This document shows, piece by piece, positions 9,463 to 42,928 of a stretch of DNA of 48,763 bases; the first letter of the stretch is position 1; each line of letters opens with the position of its first letter. The stretch is from Bacteroidota bacterium (GTDB lineage Bacteria; Bacteroidota; Bacteroidia; B-17B0; Aurantibacillaceae). The translations under genes and the position numbers were made by a program. The notes beneath the pieces are model-generated. The model did not search any database and was not told the DNA's origin. It saw only the letters and a list, made by a program, of their open reading frames with translations. Location: the NCBI GenBank assembly GCA_005787585.1, contig SYAL01000051.1, positions 1-48,763 on the forward strand, in the 5' to 3' direction.

Positions 9463-9649
9463 ACTATTTTTAGGGTAAGTTAATTTATTAGCTTGAGTTT
9501 TTAAGCATCTAAATAATATTTATTTTTAAGATAAACATCTTGTAAATATCTATCATATAGGTTTGCCGATAATTTCTTTTAACAATTACATAACATTAGA
9601 TTTACTTAGAGTTTATTTAAGATATTTTTTTTTACATAAAATTTACTTT

Positions 9650-10891
9650 ATGTACAAAATAATAACATTAAATTTAATTTTTGTTTTATTACAACAATTT
9701 TCGATTAACGCTCAAGATAGTTTGTCAATAAAAACTTTAAGCATTAATGGTGAAAAATTACCTTTTGAAGAAAAGAAAAAGCTTTGGTATGAATCCTTTA
9801 CCATAAGAGGTTATGCACAAGCCCGTTATAATCGTTTATTTGAAACCAATAATCAACTTGGTTGTGAGCAATGTGATAAGAGTTGGGGTGGGAATGGAGG
9901 TTTCTTTTTTAGGCGCATTCGTTTCATTTACTTTGGGCAATTAAGTAAACAGGTGTATTTTTATATTCAGCCAGACTTTGCTAGTTCTGCCTCAACAAAT
10001 GGATTACATTTTGCTCAAATTAGAGATGCTTATTTCGATATAGGGTTAGATGCAGAAAATGAGTTTCGGATTAGAATAGGGCAAAGTAAAGTACCGTTTG
10101 GTTTTGAGAACATGCAATCTAGTCAAAATAGGCTACCACTGGATCGAAATGATGCGCTTAACAGTGCAGTATCAAATGAGCGTGATATTGGTGTATTTTT
10201 TTATTGGGCACCTAAAAAAATTAGAGATCGTTTTTTAATGTTGGTAAGAGAGAATTACAAAGGCTCTGGAGATTATGGTGTTTTTGGTTTAGGTGCTTAT
10301 AATGGCCAAACAGCCAATAAACCTGAATTAAATAATGAGTTTCATATAGTGGCTAGGATTTGCTATCCGTTAGAAATTGGTTCTCAAATAATTGAACCTG
10401 CTGTACAAGGCTTTACCGGTAATTATTTAATACCTAAAGATCAGATTACTCCGGGCGTTAAAACAAAGTCCGATTTAAATTATCTAGATCATAGGGCAGC
10501 AGCTAGCCTTGTGCTTTATCCAAAACCTTTTGGATTTACGGCAGAATATAATATCGGAATAGGGCCAGAGTATAATAAAATTACTAATGCTATTGAAGAA
10601 AGACCACTTAAGGGAGGATACATTACATTTAATTACATGGTAAAATTAAAAAAACAAATTCTTTTCCCTTTTATCAGAACTCAATACTATTCGGGTGGAA
10701 AAAAACATGAAAAGGATTCAAGAAGTTATGTTGTGCACGAAAATGAATTTGGCTTTGAATGGCAACCAAGTAAAAATTTTGAATTAGTGGTTATGTACAC
10801 TATGTCTTCAAGAAGATATGAAGATGGAGGATTAAAAAATAACTTACAAGTGGGAAATTTATTGCGTTTGCAAGCGCAAGTTAACTTTTAA
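9650..10891 (+). CDS. Phosphate-selective porin O/P family protein
   Basis: About 413 residues from the ATG at 9650, which starts the signal peptide MYKIITLNLIFVLL ending near INAQ. A longer frame opens at 9563, but its extra 29 residues would bury the signal. The mature protein has the OprO/OprP pattern: FTIRGYAQARYN, FFFRRIRFIYFGQL, QPDFASS, RIGQSKVPFGFENMQSSQNRLPLDR, then many amphipathic strands ending in RLQAQVNF. It is predicted to be an outer-membrane barrel for phosphate or polyphosphate-like anions. The Pit transporter follows 60 bp downstream, supporting the phosphate role. Substrate specificity is inferred, not shown. Confidence 0.85.
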   Translation: MYKIITLNLIFVLLQQFSINAQDSLSIKTLSINGEKLPFEEKKKLWYESFTIRGYAQARYNRLFETNNQLGCEQCDKSWGGNGGFFFRRIRFIYFGQLSKQVYFYIQPDFASSASTNGLHFAQIRDAYFDIGLDAENEFRIRIGQSKVPFGFENMQSSQNRLPLDRNDALNSAVSNERDIGVFFYWAPKKIRDRFLMLVRENYKGSGDYGVFGLGAYNGQTANKPELNNEFHIVARICYPLEIGSQIIEPAVQGFTGNYLIPKDQITPGVKTKSDLNYLDHRAAASLVLYPKPFGFTAEYNIGIGPEYNKITNAIEERPLKGGYITFNYMVKLKKQILFPFIRTQYYSGGKKHEKDSRSYVVHENEFGFEWQPSKNFELVVMYTMSSRRYEDGGLKNNLQVGNLLRLQAQVNF

Positions 10892-21356: not shown

Positions 21357-22088
21357 ATGAAAAGATTAATTTTAATTATATTTTTAGTTAATGTACTTTC
21401 ATCGCCAGGTTCAATCGTTCTTGTTGTAATTCCGATTAAATCTATTAAACTTGATTCACTAATTTTTAAGAAGATTTTGTTTCATAGTGCTATTCTGGCT
21501 CAACCGACTTCAATTCCAATATCTGATATAATAGATTTACGAAAAACAAGTTATGTATTAACTGACTTAAACGCCGCTGCAAAAACGAACAATGATTCAG
21601 TTTATAATATAATTCGCCAATTGATTTCTCCTTCAACTAAACTGACTCGAACTTCAAAACTTGATTCAGCATCAGCTTTTCATGCAAACTACTTAATTGA
21701 AACAAAAAAGGTTAGTCACTATGAATATGATCGACCCCAAACTCAAACTCCAATGAAACGTGCTCAAAAGTTCGGAGATAGTGGCATGGGAATATATGAA
21801 GTATGCTGGGGTGGAACTCCAAAATATGAAAAAATTCCAAAGACACAAAGAGAAGCCATTCACTATTTTAAGAATAGTGATAAACATTGGGATATAATGA
21901 CAAGAGCAGTAAGTCAGTTTACTGAAATAAGATTTGGATATTGCCGTATTGAAACTGAGGATTGGAGTGTATGCGTTATTATCTATTCAACTGGGCCTAT
22001 AATTACATATCAAGATTTACTTGCTGAACAGACACTATACCATGATTCTTGTGTTCGGAGAAAGCAACTTAAAAAATTTGGGAAATAA
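21357..22088 (+). CDS. CAP (SCP/PR1)-like secreted protein
   Basis: A 243-residue protein with an N-terminal hydrophobic segment (about 2-29) and a second one near 45-50, so it is exported or membrane-anchored. Residues about 105-215 fit the CAP fold: LDSASAFHANYLIETKKVSHYE, TPMKRAQKFG, GIYEVCWGG, then FKNSDKHWDIMT and FGYCRIETEDWSVCVIIYS. The conserved His and Glu positions of the CAP cavity appear as His in SHYE, Glu in YEVCW and His in DKHWD. Bacterial CAP proteins have poorly known roles. The N-terminal ~100 residues match nothing I recognise. It has 200-bp and 100-bp gaps around it, so it is likely transcribed alone. Confidence 0.65.
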   Translation: MKRLILIIFLVNVLSSPGSIVLVVIPIKSIKLDSLIFKKILFHSAILAQPTSIPISDIIDLRKTSYVLTDLNAAAKTNNDSVYNIIRQLISPSTKLTRTSKLDSASAFHANYLIETKKVSHYEYDRPQTQTPMKRAQKFGDSGMGIYEVCWGGTPKYEKIPKTQREAIHYFKNSDKHWDIMTRAVSQFTEIRFGYCRIETEDWSVCVIIYSTGPIITYQDLLAEQTLYHDSCVRRKQLKKFGK

Positions 22089-34942: not shown

Positions 34943-35404
34943 TTAACTCGGAAAATAATTAAAATTAGGTTCAGAGTCTAACACACCATAATTAACAGAA
35001 ACCAATTTATTATGTTCAAAATAACAGTCTAAACTAATACTATCAAAACTTATTCGTTTTTCGCCCCAGGGATGATTTTCTTTATCAGATAAAGCATGTC
35101 CATTTTGTAATAAAAGTTGAATTAATTCTTTTTCATTTAAGGTAAATAATTTACAATTAAAAAGTAAGGTTTCTTTATTATCAATTTCGACACTATAAAA
35201 ATGTTTATTAAAATGATTCTCGAAAAACAAAGAAAAACCAAGATCCCAATAATGCGCTATTAAAGAGCTATTATTTAAAACATCATCGTCGATATTTTGT
35301 ATCTCTTCGGGTTCCCCAAAAAGAAGAATAGCTTCTTCAATTGAGGCCCCAAAATTAAGAGAACAAAAGCCTTGTAACAATTTTATTTTTGGAGCATTTA
35401 GCAT
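34943..35404 (-). CDS. Unknown soluble protein (153 aa)
   Basis: A 153-residue acidic protein without signal peptide or membrane segment. It opens with LNFGASIEEAILLFGEPEEI, a pattern seen in small proteins whose first helix and turn read G-x-S-x-E-E-A-x-x-x-F-G-x-P, and contains paired beta-like stretches (SIAHYWDLGFSLFFE-like and SISLDCYFEHNKLVSVNYG). I do not recognise a named family; it could be an immunity- or SMI1-like protein, but nothing here proves it. A -7 box lies 7 nt before the ATG, which supports expression from its own promoter. Confidence 0.6.
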   Translation of the reverse strand: MLNAPKIKLLQGFCSLNFGASIEEAILLFGEPEEIQNIDDDVLNNSSLIAHYWDLGFSLFFENHFNKHFYSVEIDNKETLLFNCKLFTLNEKELIQLLLQNGHALSDKENHPWGEKRISFDSISLDCYFEHNKLVSVNYGVLDSEPNFNYFPS

Positions 35405-37623: not shown

Positions 37624-38067
37624 TTATTTATTTCCGGTGCTACCGAAGCCACCCAAACCTCTTTTAGAATTTTCTAATTGATTAACCAGCTTCCAAACAA
37701 TTTGTTCGTGTTTTGCAACAACCATTTGGGCTATTCTTTCGCCATTATTAACGATAAAATCAGTATCAGATAGATTCACTAAAAGCACTTTTACTTCGCC
37801 TCGATAATCAGCATCTATAGTCCCTGGAGCATTTAAAACAGTTAGCCCATTTTTGAAAGCTAAACCACTGCGAGGACGAATTTGCGCTTCAAAACCTGCT
37901 GGAAGTTCAATAAAAAGTCCAGTAGGAATTAAATATCGCTGAAGCGGTTTTAATAAAATACTTTCAGAAAGATTTGCTTTTAAATCGAGTCCAGCTGATA
38001 AAATTGTTGCGTATTCTGGTAAAGCGTGTTCAGATTGATTAATTACTTTAAGTTGAATTGTTGTCAT
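37624..38067 (-). CDS. dut: dUTP diphosphatase
   Basis: A 147-residue trimeric dUTPase that hydrolyses dUTP to dUMP. All five motifs are visible: AGLDLKA (1), [11 protein letters not shown] (2), [18 protein letters not shown] (3), [12 protein letters not shown] (4) and the C-terminal [10 protein letters not shown] (5). The start overlaps the flippase stop by 20 bp, so translation is probably coupled. Confidence 0.97.
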
Positions 38068-39550
38068 GAGAGTTTAATTTTTTTAAGGTACTATATTCCA
38101 TTTTATAAACAATCCAGACAAATAAAATAATCCATAAATTATTTAATATCAATTTAATTGCAGAGCTATTGATGTTTGAATAAAGATGAGAAATGAAATA
38201 AAAACTAAAAGCTAAAAAACAATAAACACAAATTGCCCTAAGGTTATATTTAATTGGAAAATATATTTGCCCTAAGATGTATGATAATAACATCATACCT
38301 CCATAAGCAGCAAGGGTAGACCAAGCACAAGCCATGTAAGAATAATTAGGCACAAATAAAATATTTAATATTAAAGTAATCGCCGCACCAGTAATGGCAA
38401 TTATTGCCCCGAATCTAGTTTTGCCACTTAATTTATACCAAATAGATTGATTGTAAACAACCCCTAAACAAAGGTATGCAACCAATAATATGGGTACTAC
38501 TTTTAAACCCACTCGGTAATGACTTTCTAAAATATATTGTATCCAATCCAAATTCATAACCATTGCTAAAAATAAAAACAAACAAAAAATAATAAAATAT
38601 TTCATTACTATAGCATAAGTTTGTTTAGAATCTTTTTCTTTCGCTTTACCAAAAAAGAAAGGTTCTGATGCAAATCGAAATGATTGAATAAAAATACTCA
38701 TTAATACCGCTATTTTATTACAGGCACCGTATATACCTTGTGCTATCTGGGCTTCAGACTTATCGAGCATTAATTTTTTTATAATAATTTTATCTAAGGT
38801 ATCGTTTACCATTGCCGCTAAACCTAAAATAATTAAAGGCCAAGCATATGATAGCATTTTTTTTAGAAGTTGAATATTGATGTTAAATTTTATATTTATC
38901 AACTGATTTCCTAGCAGGATAAGTGTAATAATATTAGCAATTAATGTAGATAAAAACACATATCCAATCCCAATTTGAGGGTTATAAAGAGCAGCATAAC
39001 TATTTACTTCACAAAGGTCATAGCTTGATTTACATATTTTTAAGAAGAAGATAGTTAAACCAAAATTTATTACAATATTGGTTAATTTTAAAAATGAAAA
39101 TTTAAGAGCTTTACCTTCAGTTCGCAGCTTTGCGAAAGGAATAACGGCAATTGCGTCGGTCGCAATAATTAATATACTCCAAATAATAAATTGAGGCAAA
39201 TAAACTGCATTTGGTGTAGAAAGTTCATTAGCAATATTTGATGTGAATAATAAAAGTAACCCGCTAAATACAGTGGATGAAATTAGCAAAGCCCAAAAAG
39301 AGGTATTAAATACATCGTGTTTATTTTCTAATTTCGAGTTAAAATTAAAAAAAGCGGTTTCCATGCCATAGGTAAAAATTACATTTAAAAAAGAAATGTA
39401 GGCATATAACTCACTATTAATACCAAATTCTGCTGCCGAAAATTCGTAAGTTAAAATTGGAGTTAGTAAATAATTAAGAATCCTTGGCATAATCGTTCCT
39501 AAACCATATATGGCAGTTTGACTAGCAAGTTTTTTTAAAGGATTGGACAC
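38048..39550 (-). CDS. Wzx-like polysaccharide flippase (MOP superfamily)
   Basis: A 500-residue integral membrane protein with about 12-14 hydrophobic segments. The N-terminus [30 protein letters not shown] is typical of polysaccharide biosynthesis/flippase proteins, as is the central [16 protein letters not shown]-like segment ([28 protein letters not shown] at 270-300, here abbreviated). It would flip lipid-linked sugars across the inner membrane. The start is GTG at 39550. It overlaps dut by 20 bp. No glycosyltransferases are nearby, so the cargo is unknown. Confidence 0.85.
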
Positions 39551-39643: not shown

Positions 39644-42166
39644 TTATTTTCCAAAGTCTAATCCATCTTGACTTCCTTGTTGAGAATCGGATCCTTTCAT
39701 TTGTTTAGCGCGTTTAAAAATTGAGGCATCCATTTTCCCAAAAAGATAGGTTAATGTTACTCGCACATAACGACTTTCTCTTCGACGCGATAAATCTTGA
39801 ATATAATAAGGAGTTTGGAACTGAGTTCCCATTCTTCGGGTGTTAAATGCGTCGCTTAAAGTAGCATTAATTATCCATTTTGAGCTTACCATTTTATTAA
39901 TAGAAATATCCATAGAATAAATTGGTAAAGAAAAACCAAGTAATAAAATACGTGGCGATTCGTAATTACCATTTACTTGAAGAGTTAGCTGTTTTGGAAA
40001 ACGGTATGATAAAGTAGCTTTTGTATTGTAGGCAAATCCTTTGGTGGTTACTTCTGGTTCTGTTGGAACAACAATACCGTTAATATAAATATAAAATGCG
40101 TTTGCATTAATTGTGGCATCTAAATATTTAAAAAGAGTGTATTTAAATGTGTGTTCCATCCCATAGCGAGTACTATTTTTACCATTTACAGTTGTATTAA
40201 TTAATACTGTAGGATCACTTAATGAGGGGTAAGCCACATCTGTTATAGGTTGTTCTTCGTAACGAAAATAGCACGAACCCAAATAACTACCATTAGTAAA
40301 AGTATTATTATAATTTATTTAGGCAATATTTTTAAATTCAGGTTTTAATTGAGGGTTACCAATGCGGTAATTTTGTTTATCGGCAAACATGATAAAAGGC
40401 ATTAATTGAAAAAAATTTGGTCTTTGTATTTTACGACTAAAATTAATTTGAAACTCTTGATTTTTAATTATTTTTTTTGAAAAATAAATTCCGGGGAAAA
40501 TGGATTTTAATAGATCTCCAGTAACAGATGGATAATTGTAAGAAAAAGATTGATTTTTATTCTTTATAGTGCCTTCGTAGTATGATTGTTCAAAGCGCAA
40601 GCCTGCTTGATAAGAAATATCAAAAATAGTTTTACTATTATAATTTATATATGCAGCATTAATCATATCATCTATGATATAATGGTTACTCATTACACTA
40701 TCATAAGTATAATTATCAGGATTTACTTGTGCATTTTTTGTATCATTAATACTGATAGAATTTTTAAAGTAAGATTTAATTCCCGCTTCAAACTTTTTTG
40801 TTTCGCTAATAGGATTAGTATAATCTAATTGCAAAACAAATTGGTTAGATGTAGTTGTTCCGTTGTTTTTTTGAAAAGTATTACCAATAATGATTGTATC
40901 TGGAGGAATGTGTGATTCTGTATTAAATAAATAGTCGTTTTTTGAATTTGTGTGATTGTAATTTAAATCACTGGTAAACTCTTGCCCAACTTTTGGAAAT
41001 ATTTTTTTATAGTATAATTGGCCGTTATAATTTTGAAATTCAGCCGCCTGATCATTTACCCTTTTACCATAAAATAATTGCACTCTATTTTTATCTAAAA
41101 TATTATAATTTTGTTTATCATTAGTCTCATATACCCCACCCATTAGCATACTATTTATTGAAATAGTGTTTCGATTATTAATATTATAATCGAGGCCAAT
41201 TTTTCCAAAATTAAATGCGTTTAATTGTCTTACCAAATTATCTTGACGATAATACCCTAAAGTTTTTTGTATTGAATCGAGTTGAGTTCTATTTGTAAAG
41301 CCTACAGTATTATTAAAAGCTTGATTATAGGAATACATTGAAGTTAAATTCCATTTGCCTTCTTTAACATTCAAGTTAAACATACCCCCATAGCGATCAC
41401 TTGAGCCGGCATATCCCATAATCATTCCGTTATAACCTGGCTTTAGATTTTTCTTCATTACAATATTTAAAATACCACCGGTAGAACTGGCATCAAATTT
41501 TACAGATGGGTTTGTAATTACTTCAATTCGATCGATTTGATCTGCAGGTATCTGTTGAAGTGTTAAGTTAGAAGGACGACCATCTATAAAAATCATTGGA
41601 CTCTGATTTCTTAATTGGGCATTACCATCAGCATCAACAGTAACTCCAGGAACATTTTTCATCACATCAACTGCCGTGCCTCCTTTAACAGAAATGTCGT
41701 TATCAACATTATAAATTCTTTTATCAATGGACATAACAATATTATTTTTTTTAGTTGTTACTTCCACTTCATTTAATAGTTTTTCATCTATTTCTAAATT
41801 AATATCTCCTAAATCTTGTTCTATTTTATTGGGCAGCTGGATGTAAAATTTAGTTTCGTAGGTTTTGTATCCAAGTAAAGTGGCTTTAAATCTAAAGCCT
41901 CCCATAGCGGGTAAATTATCTATACTAAACTCTCCATTTTTTTTGGTTAATGTTCCCCCCAACAAGCTATCTTTATTAAACCAAAGCACGACAACTGATG
42001 CATATTCTATAGATTTTTTTGTTTTTGAATCGATTAATTTTCCATAAACCCTTCCTTTAATATCTTTCATTAATTTCATCATGTCTTTTTGATTTCCTCC
42101 ACCTGGCATTTGAGCATTAATAATAAAAGAATAAAGAAAAAATATTATTATAAATCTATATTTCAT
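39644..42166 (-). pseudogene. TonB-dependent-receptor-like gene with one in-frame TAA
   Basis: The frame from the ATG at 42166 to the stop at 39644 encodes about 840 codons interrupted only by TAA at 40321-40319. The first 615 residues hold a signal peptide (ending INAQ), a carboxypeptidase-regulatory-like domain (about 35-115), a plug domain (MIFIDGRPSNL, RIEVITNPSVKFDASSTGGILNIVMKK) and most of the barrel, ending at NPQLKPEFKNIA. The reading frame continues unchanged after the stop (INYNNTFTNGSY, then GSCYFRYEEQ) through the last barrel strands. Homologues usually have Glu at this position, so GAA to TAA is the simplest explanation. Without the last ~210 residues the barrel cannot close. 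Confidence 0.88.
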
Positions 42167-42335: not shown

Positions 42336-42343
42336 TATATTTG
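42336..42343 (+). promoter_or_regulatory. -7 box TATATTTG for gmk, 3 nt from ATG
   Basis: TATATTTG fits TAnnTTTG and ends three bases before the ATG at 42347. The in-frame TTG at 42341 lies inside this box, so it is not the start codon. No TTTG is seen at -33 spacing. A leaderless transcript is predicted. Confidence 0.5.
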
Positions 42344-42346
42344 TAT

Positions 42347-42928
42347 ATGCATAGTGGTAAATTAATTATTTTTTCAGCACCCTCTGGCTCTGGTAAAACG
42401 ACCTTAGTAAGGCATATATTAAAAACATTTCCTCAATACATCGAATTTTCAATTTCTGCTACTAGTCGACCTAAAAGAGGGGTTGAAGAAAATGGAAAAG
42501 ATTACCATTATTTAAGTGTAAAAGATTTTAAGCAAAAGATTAACGAAAATGAATTTTTAGAATGGGAAGAGGTGTATACAGGGGTGCACTATGGAACATT
42601 AAAGAAAGAAGTAGAGCTAATTTGGAGTAAAGGCAAGGCTGTGATTTTCGACATAGATGTAGAGGGAGGATTAAATTTAAAAAGTATTTTTAAACAAGAT
42701 GCATTAGCTATTTTTGTAATGCCACCTAGTATAAAAATATTAGAAGAACGTTTACTTTCTCGAAGTACAGATAATGTTGAAAGTATTGCGAGGAGATTAA
42801 CAAAAGCCGAAAAAGAATTAAAAACAGCAGAATTATTTGATATGTTTATATTGAATGAAAATTTAGAACTTGCTTGCTCAAAAGCCGAAGAAATTGTGTC
42901 TGATTTTTTAGTTTTAAAAAAATCTTAA
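42347..42928 (+). CDS. gmk: Guanylate kinase
   Basis: About 193 residues. It phosphorylates GMP to GDP. The P-loop SAPSGSGKTT is at 10-19. The GMP-binding region ATSRPKRGVEENGKDYHY, FLEWEEVYTGVHYGT and the later DIDVEGGLNLK are canonical. RRLTKAEKEL forms the lid-side helix. The ATG at 42347 is chosen over the TTG at 42341. The gene converges on the DUF349 gene with a 16-bp gap. A perfect palindrome TTAATCGATTAA (42925-42936) sits on its stop. Confidence 0.96.
   Translation: MHSGKLIIFSAPSGSGKTTLVRHILKTFPQYIEFSISATSRPKRGVEENGKDYHYLSVKDFKQKINENEFLEWEEVYTGVHYGTLKKEVELIWSKGKAVIFDIDVEGGLNLKSIFKQDALAIFVMPPSIKILEERLLSRSTDNVESIARRLTKAEKELKTAELFDMFILNENLELACSKAEEIVSDFLVLKKS

Follow-up and report, generated by a model that had tools for sequence, protein, structure and literature searches.

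The window, a stretch of 48,763 nucleotides, is one contig (C50) of a 1.76-Mb assembly that comprises 57 contigs and is 73% complete. It carries on its minus strand a gene for a putative outer-membrane transporter whose reading frame is broken by a single in-frame stop codon. The gene, its parts, and its two adjacent genes are as follows.

39644..42166, minus strand: whole interrupted gene, 840 codons plus terminal stop; CarboxypepD_reg-like domain, plug, and outer-membrane beta-barrel
40322..42166, minus strand: part before the stop, 615 codons; PF13715, PF13620, PF07715, and PF14905 positions 3-219
40319..40321, minus strand: in-frame TAA, codon 616; Glu in 51 of the 51 orthologs examined
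39647..40318, minus strand: part after the stop, 224 codons, end of the barrel; PF14905 positions 228-408, E 8.2e-29
42341..42928, plus strand: guanylate kinase, neighbor, divergent to the interrupted gene
38048..39550, minus strand: polysaccharide-biosynthesis protein, neighbor, PF01943

The PF01943 neighbor is presumably of the flippase type, and a dUTPase and a porphobilinogen deaminase are also among the near neighbors of the interrupted gene.

An earlier note on this DNA had described the frame as open on both sides of the TAA at 40321-40319. Indeed, the minus strand can be read from 42166 to 39644 as 840 codons in which this TAA is the sole internal stop; the terminal codon is also TAA. 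The distance of 12 codons that the note had given between the stop and the start of the next listed open reading frame (40282) is correct as well. In a Pfam search, the part before the stop matched a carboxypeptidase-regulatory-like domain, the TonB plug (E 1.8e-07), and OMP_b-brl_3 (PF14905, E 1.6e-46), with plug and barrel in the order expected from a TonB-dependent-transporter-like barrel (PF14905/PF07715). The two halves match consecutive pieces of one model, OMP_b-brl_3, and the continuity of the frame is therefore not due to chance. Neither part of the gene matched a family in NCBIfam, and no PDB chain was matched in a search by sequence with the part before the stop. From its domains, the predicted gene product is a TonB-dependent-transporter-like outer-membrane barrel protein. 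It resembles the members of the OMP_b-brl_3 family that carry CarboxypepD_reg-like and Plug domains, both halves fitting the model one after the other, and differs from them in having one in-frame UAA at codon 616.

We then considered what a stop at this position would remove, using the predicted structure of an intact ortholog rather than of the window protein. Confidence in this model is moderate (mean pLDDT 69.6). In the PDB, the fold is closest to that of TonB-dependent transporters, PhuR and FhuE among them, with 10-15% identity and a large rmsd; for 8the_A, the E value is 2.2e-22, the TM-scores are 0.55/0.63, and the rmsd is 7.7. The residue that corresponds to the stop is Glu 604 of the modelled ortholog, which lies in the strand 598-611 and is followed by roughly nine more strands. 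By our own count from the secondary structure listed for the predicted ortholog, the barrel has ~22 strands in total, of which roughly nine, the last one included, should be lost with the part beyond the stop. The C-terminal strand of such proteins is needed for outer-membrane assembly, and loss of the last strands should block insertion.

Within the genus, 39 of 40 genomes have a match to the gene (E 1e-150), and within the order 85 of 87 (E 1e-120), the gene's own genome included both times; without its own genome, the latter count is 84 of 86. We examined the site in 51 covering loci, each from a different one of these 84 genomes. The codon is GAA in 41 of these orthologs and GAG in the other 10, which bears out the earlier statement that homologs usually carry Glu at this place. 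The nearest relative, G004, with 92% protein identity, has Glu there too; as the note had proposed, one change from GAA to TAA is enough to explain the stop. A pseudogene can be recognized by a disabling change that its orthologs lack, and here the stop at codon 616 is absent from 51 of the 51 examined. No mid-gene stop was found in the other orthologs among the genus- and order-level matches. Four order-level matches were flagged with an internal TAA, which would have meant recurrent nonsense; all four turned out to be natural C-terminal stops that the alignment had passed over, and we rejected this idea. Internal stops were flagged also in 9 weaker stretches of 25-30% identity, which are probably paralogs.

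Constraint on the protein is undiminished after the stop. In comparison with G004, dN/dS is 0.096 before the stop and 0.098 after it, and the ratio of raw differences is 0.122 (57 nonsynonymous and 114 synonymous in 615 codons) versus 0.133 (23 and 48 in 213 codons). Invariant columns, defined over 23 orthologs after the five most distant of 29 and G004 had been left out, are broken in the window's genome at 6 of 235 positions before the stop and at 2 of 94 after it. When substitutions were polarized, the window's branch had 3 in 612 positions before the stop and 3 in 215 after it (Fisher p 0.18), and the G004 branch likewise had 3 and 3, with 41 differing columns before the stop and 9 after it set aside as ambiguous. 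The rate is numerically higher after the stop, and these substitutions are too few to separate the two parts. According to a simple model, in which the tail is neutral from the origin of the stop onward and the uncertainty of the other rates is ignored, the stop is confined to about the last 2% of the window's branch after its divergence from G004, with an upper bound of ~18%. An old pseudogene is ruled out, the tail showing no significant relaxation. With the two parts under equal constraint, the stop must have arisen very recently, unless it is not real or is suppressed.

The explanation that we prefer, with a confidence close to even, is a nonsense allele of very recent origin, null in the strain from which the window comes, in a TonB-dependent-transporter-like barrel gene that is normal in other respects. 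The UAA at codon 616 would be decoded as a stop, and the ribosome would make a 615-residue fragment without roughly the last nine of the ~22 strands, the C-terminal strand among them. With its last strands lost, this fragment is expected not to be inserted in the outer membrane; it would then be degraded, which would make the allele null. The data show the stop, its absence from the orthologs examined, and the unchanged constraint behind it, whereas a real base, a truncated protein, and a loss of function are inferred. Such an allele would be unusual, since a match is present in 84 of the order's 86 other genomes, and a wrong consensus base fits the data equally well. Furthermore, the assembly of the nearest relative breaks ~10 nt past the site, possibly a sign that this locus is difficult to assemble. 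A real allele would capture at an early moment the loss of a surface transporter that nearly all of these genomes keep, a loss possibly favored by phages or by the disappearance of a substrate.

It is quite possible, if somewhat short of an even chance, that the assembly has a wrong first base in codon 616 and that the organism itself carries an undamaged gene. Such an error could have come from low coverage or base damage, or from reads of a close relative that were mixed in. A genome that is 73% complete and in 57 contigs makes this plausible, and an intact gene would show the unrelaxed constraint after the stop. Spurious pseudogenes from assembly error have been described, and low coverage is named there as an origin of spurious internal stops (Cooley and Wright 2024, PMC11017572). 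The window stop is like the cases presented there in that it stands alone in a draft assembly and interrupts a gene that is intact in relatives; it is unlike them in that no other such stop was recognized in the 259 kb that we sampled.

The G004 assembly provides a further argument for a wrong base, as its contigs end and restart beside the site: counted from the first base of the stop codon, contig C37 runs on for another ~10 nt, and the sequence is taken up again ~25 nt later by contig C21. Between the window and G004, identity is 98% over the 120 nt that lead up to this break and 85% over the 120 nt that follow it. The break falls in the region 40286-40446 of the window, in which 3 of the 136 nt that precede it are different, versus about 10% overall; this is possibly an assembly tangle or a recent recombination. 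Near-identical sequence shared by two species can tangle a metagenome assembly, and the 136-nt stretch that ends at the site, with only 3 differences between the two species, is such a sequence. However, single runs of identity that equal those near the site in length occur elsewhere in the gene without a break. Contig edges inside this gene are also common in the order: by our own tally, which counts a match as cut when it stops no more than 10 nt from a contig end, 14 of the 84 other matching genomes have one, at scattered places. The break in G004 is therefore weak evidence; 2 of the 14 edges lie within 12 residues of the site, those of G004 and of G079 (the latter at residue 611).

We also looked for other interrupted genes by screening same-frame pairs of open reading frames in 259 kb, made up of the window and 11 further stretches. 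There were 17 such pairs, one of them the case in the window. In 8 pairs, an ATG follows within 14 codons after the stop, and these were taken as neighboring genes; 7 were judged by eye without a family search, as gene pairs or as short frames taken to be shadows, and one short pair was left unread. The pairs judged by eye include what we take to be FeoA/FeoB-like neighbors and another gene pair. The window case is thus the only one taken as a nonsense interruption in the 259 kb, a judgment made partly by eye, which suggests that such stops do not abound in the assembly as a whole. Altogether, we lean slightly toward a real young allele over a wrong base. Of the readings listed in the earlier note, a recent pseudogene and a sequencing error both stand; the other two, readthrough and a contingency state, are not supported.

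Occasional or programmed readthrough, by which the UAA would still give a low level of full-length protein, is very improbable. It would account for the constraint kept in the tail, but the same constraint is expected from a very young stop. In-frame stops are reported to be widespread in bacteria and mostly short-lived, some of them under apparent purifying selection (Belinky et al. 2021, PMC7918605). The cases given there, with a single stop and a low dN/dS in the tail, resemble the one in the window; the large-scale study in the same source kept stops shared by at least two species, whereas the window stop was seen in one assembly. The stop is shared by 0 of the 51 orthologs examined, and of the 22 tRNAs that the 73%-complete assembly yielded, none reads a stop codon. 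The 131 nt starting 9 nt before the stop fold no better than shuffled sequences (z +0.50), so the structure from the stop onward is not unusual. Agreement of synonymous codons in the 20-codon windows that hold the stop is 1.06-1.16, against a mean of 1.10 and a standard deviation of 0.07, and there is no synonymous constraint around the stop. Less likely still is a real UAA with enough full-length transporter made by readthrough, which would mean a conserved surface protein kept at a very low dose behind a young stop.

Several other candidates were considered and rejected. Reassignment of UAA is unlikely, as UAA terminates most of the sampled frames (183 of 220 coding-like frames in 259 kb). 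Selenocysteine and pyrrolysine are encoded at stop codons other than UAA. A hidden overlapping element was rejected, synonymous-codon agreement being ordinary. Promoter-like matches in the region number 17, compared with 20.3 in shuffles, and terminator-like matches 2, compared with 1.0 (standard deviation, 0.9); both are about what chance would give. A split gene with its own downstream start was rejected: the first 54 codons past the stop contain no ATG, and the TTG at 40282 sits within sequence that the orthologs conserve and gave us no reason to regard it as a start.

A selected on/off state, in which loss of the surface protein is favored for a time, for example under phage attack, and is later reverted, is likewise very unlikely: a point change can revert and surface barrels are common phage receptors, but no repeat or switchable tract was seen by eye at the stop, which is a substitution and not a change in tract length, no second interrupted allele was found among the orthologs of the genus and order, and a literature search on phage resistance with TonB receptor mutations gave no matching case.

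The stop in the window is an ordinary one, one more case of known kinds, either a young in-frame stop or a stop made by assembly, and none of the results points to special decoding. Where one stop interrupts a well-constrained gene in a draft assembly, the reads should be checked before recoding or gene loss is claimed.

The comparison with G004 also pointed to differences elsewhere in the window. The open reading frames at 21357-22088 and 34943-35404 have no tblastn match in the stretches of G004 that we fetched, in which the other genes of the window do have matches; they are possibly genes gained or lost, or their counterparts lie outside the fetched stretches. The open reading frame at 9563-10891 is possibly a replaced gene: its best match in the fetched stretches covers residues 50-188 only, at 60% identity, far under its neighbors. 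Around 26594, the G004 match switches from contig C29 (to ~26591) to contig C18 (from ~26597), and both matches stop short of the ends of their contigs, which marks a possible rearrangement point.
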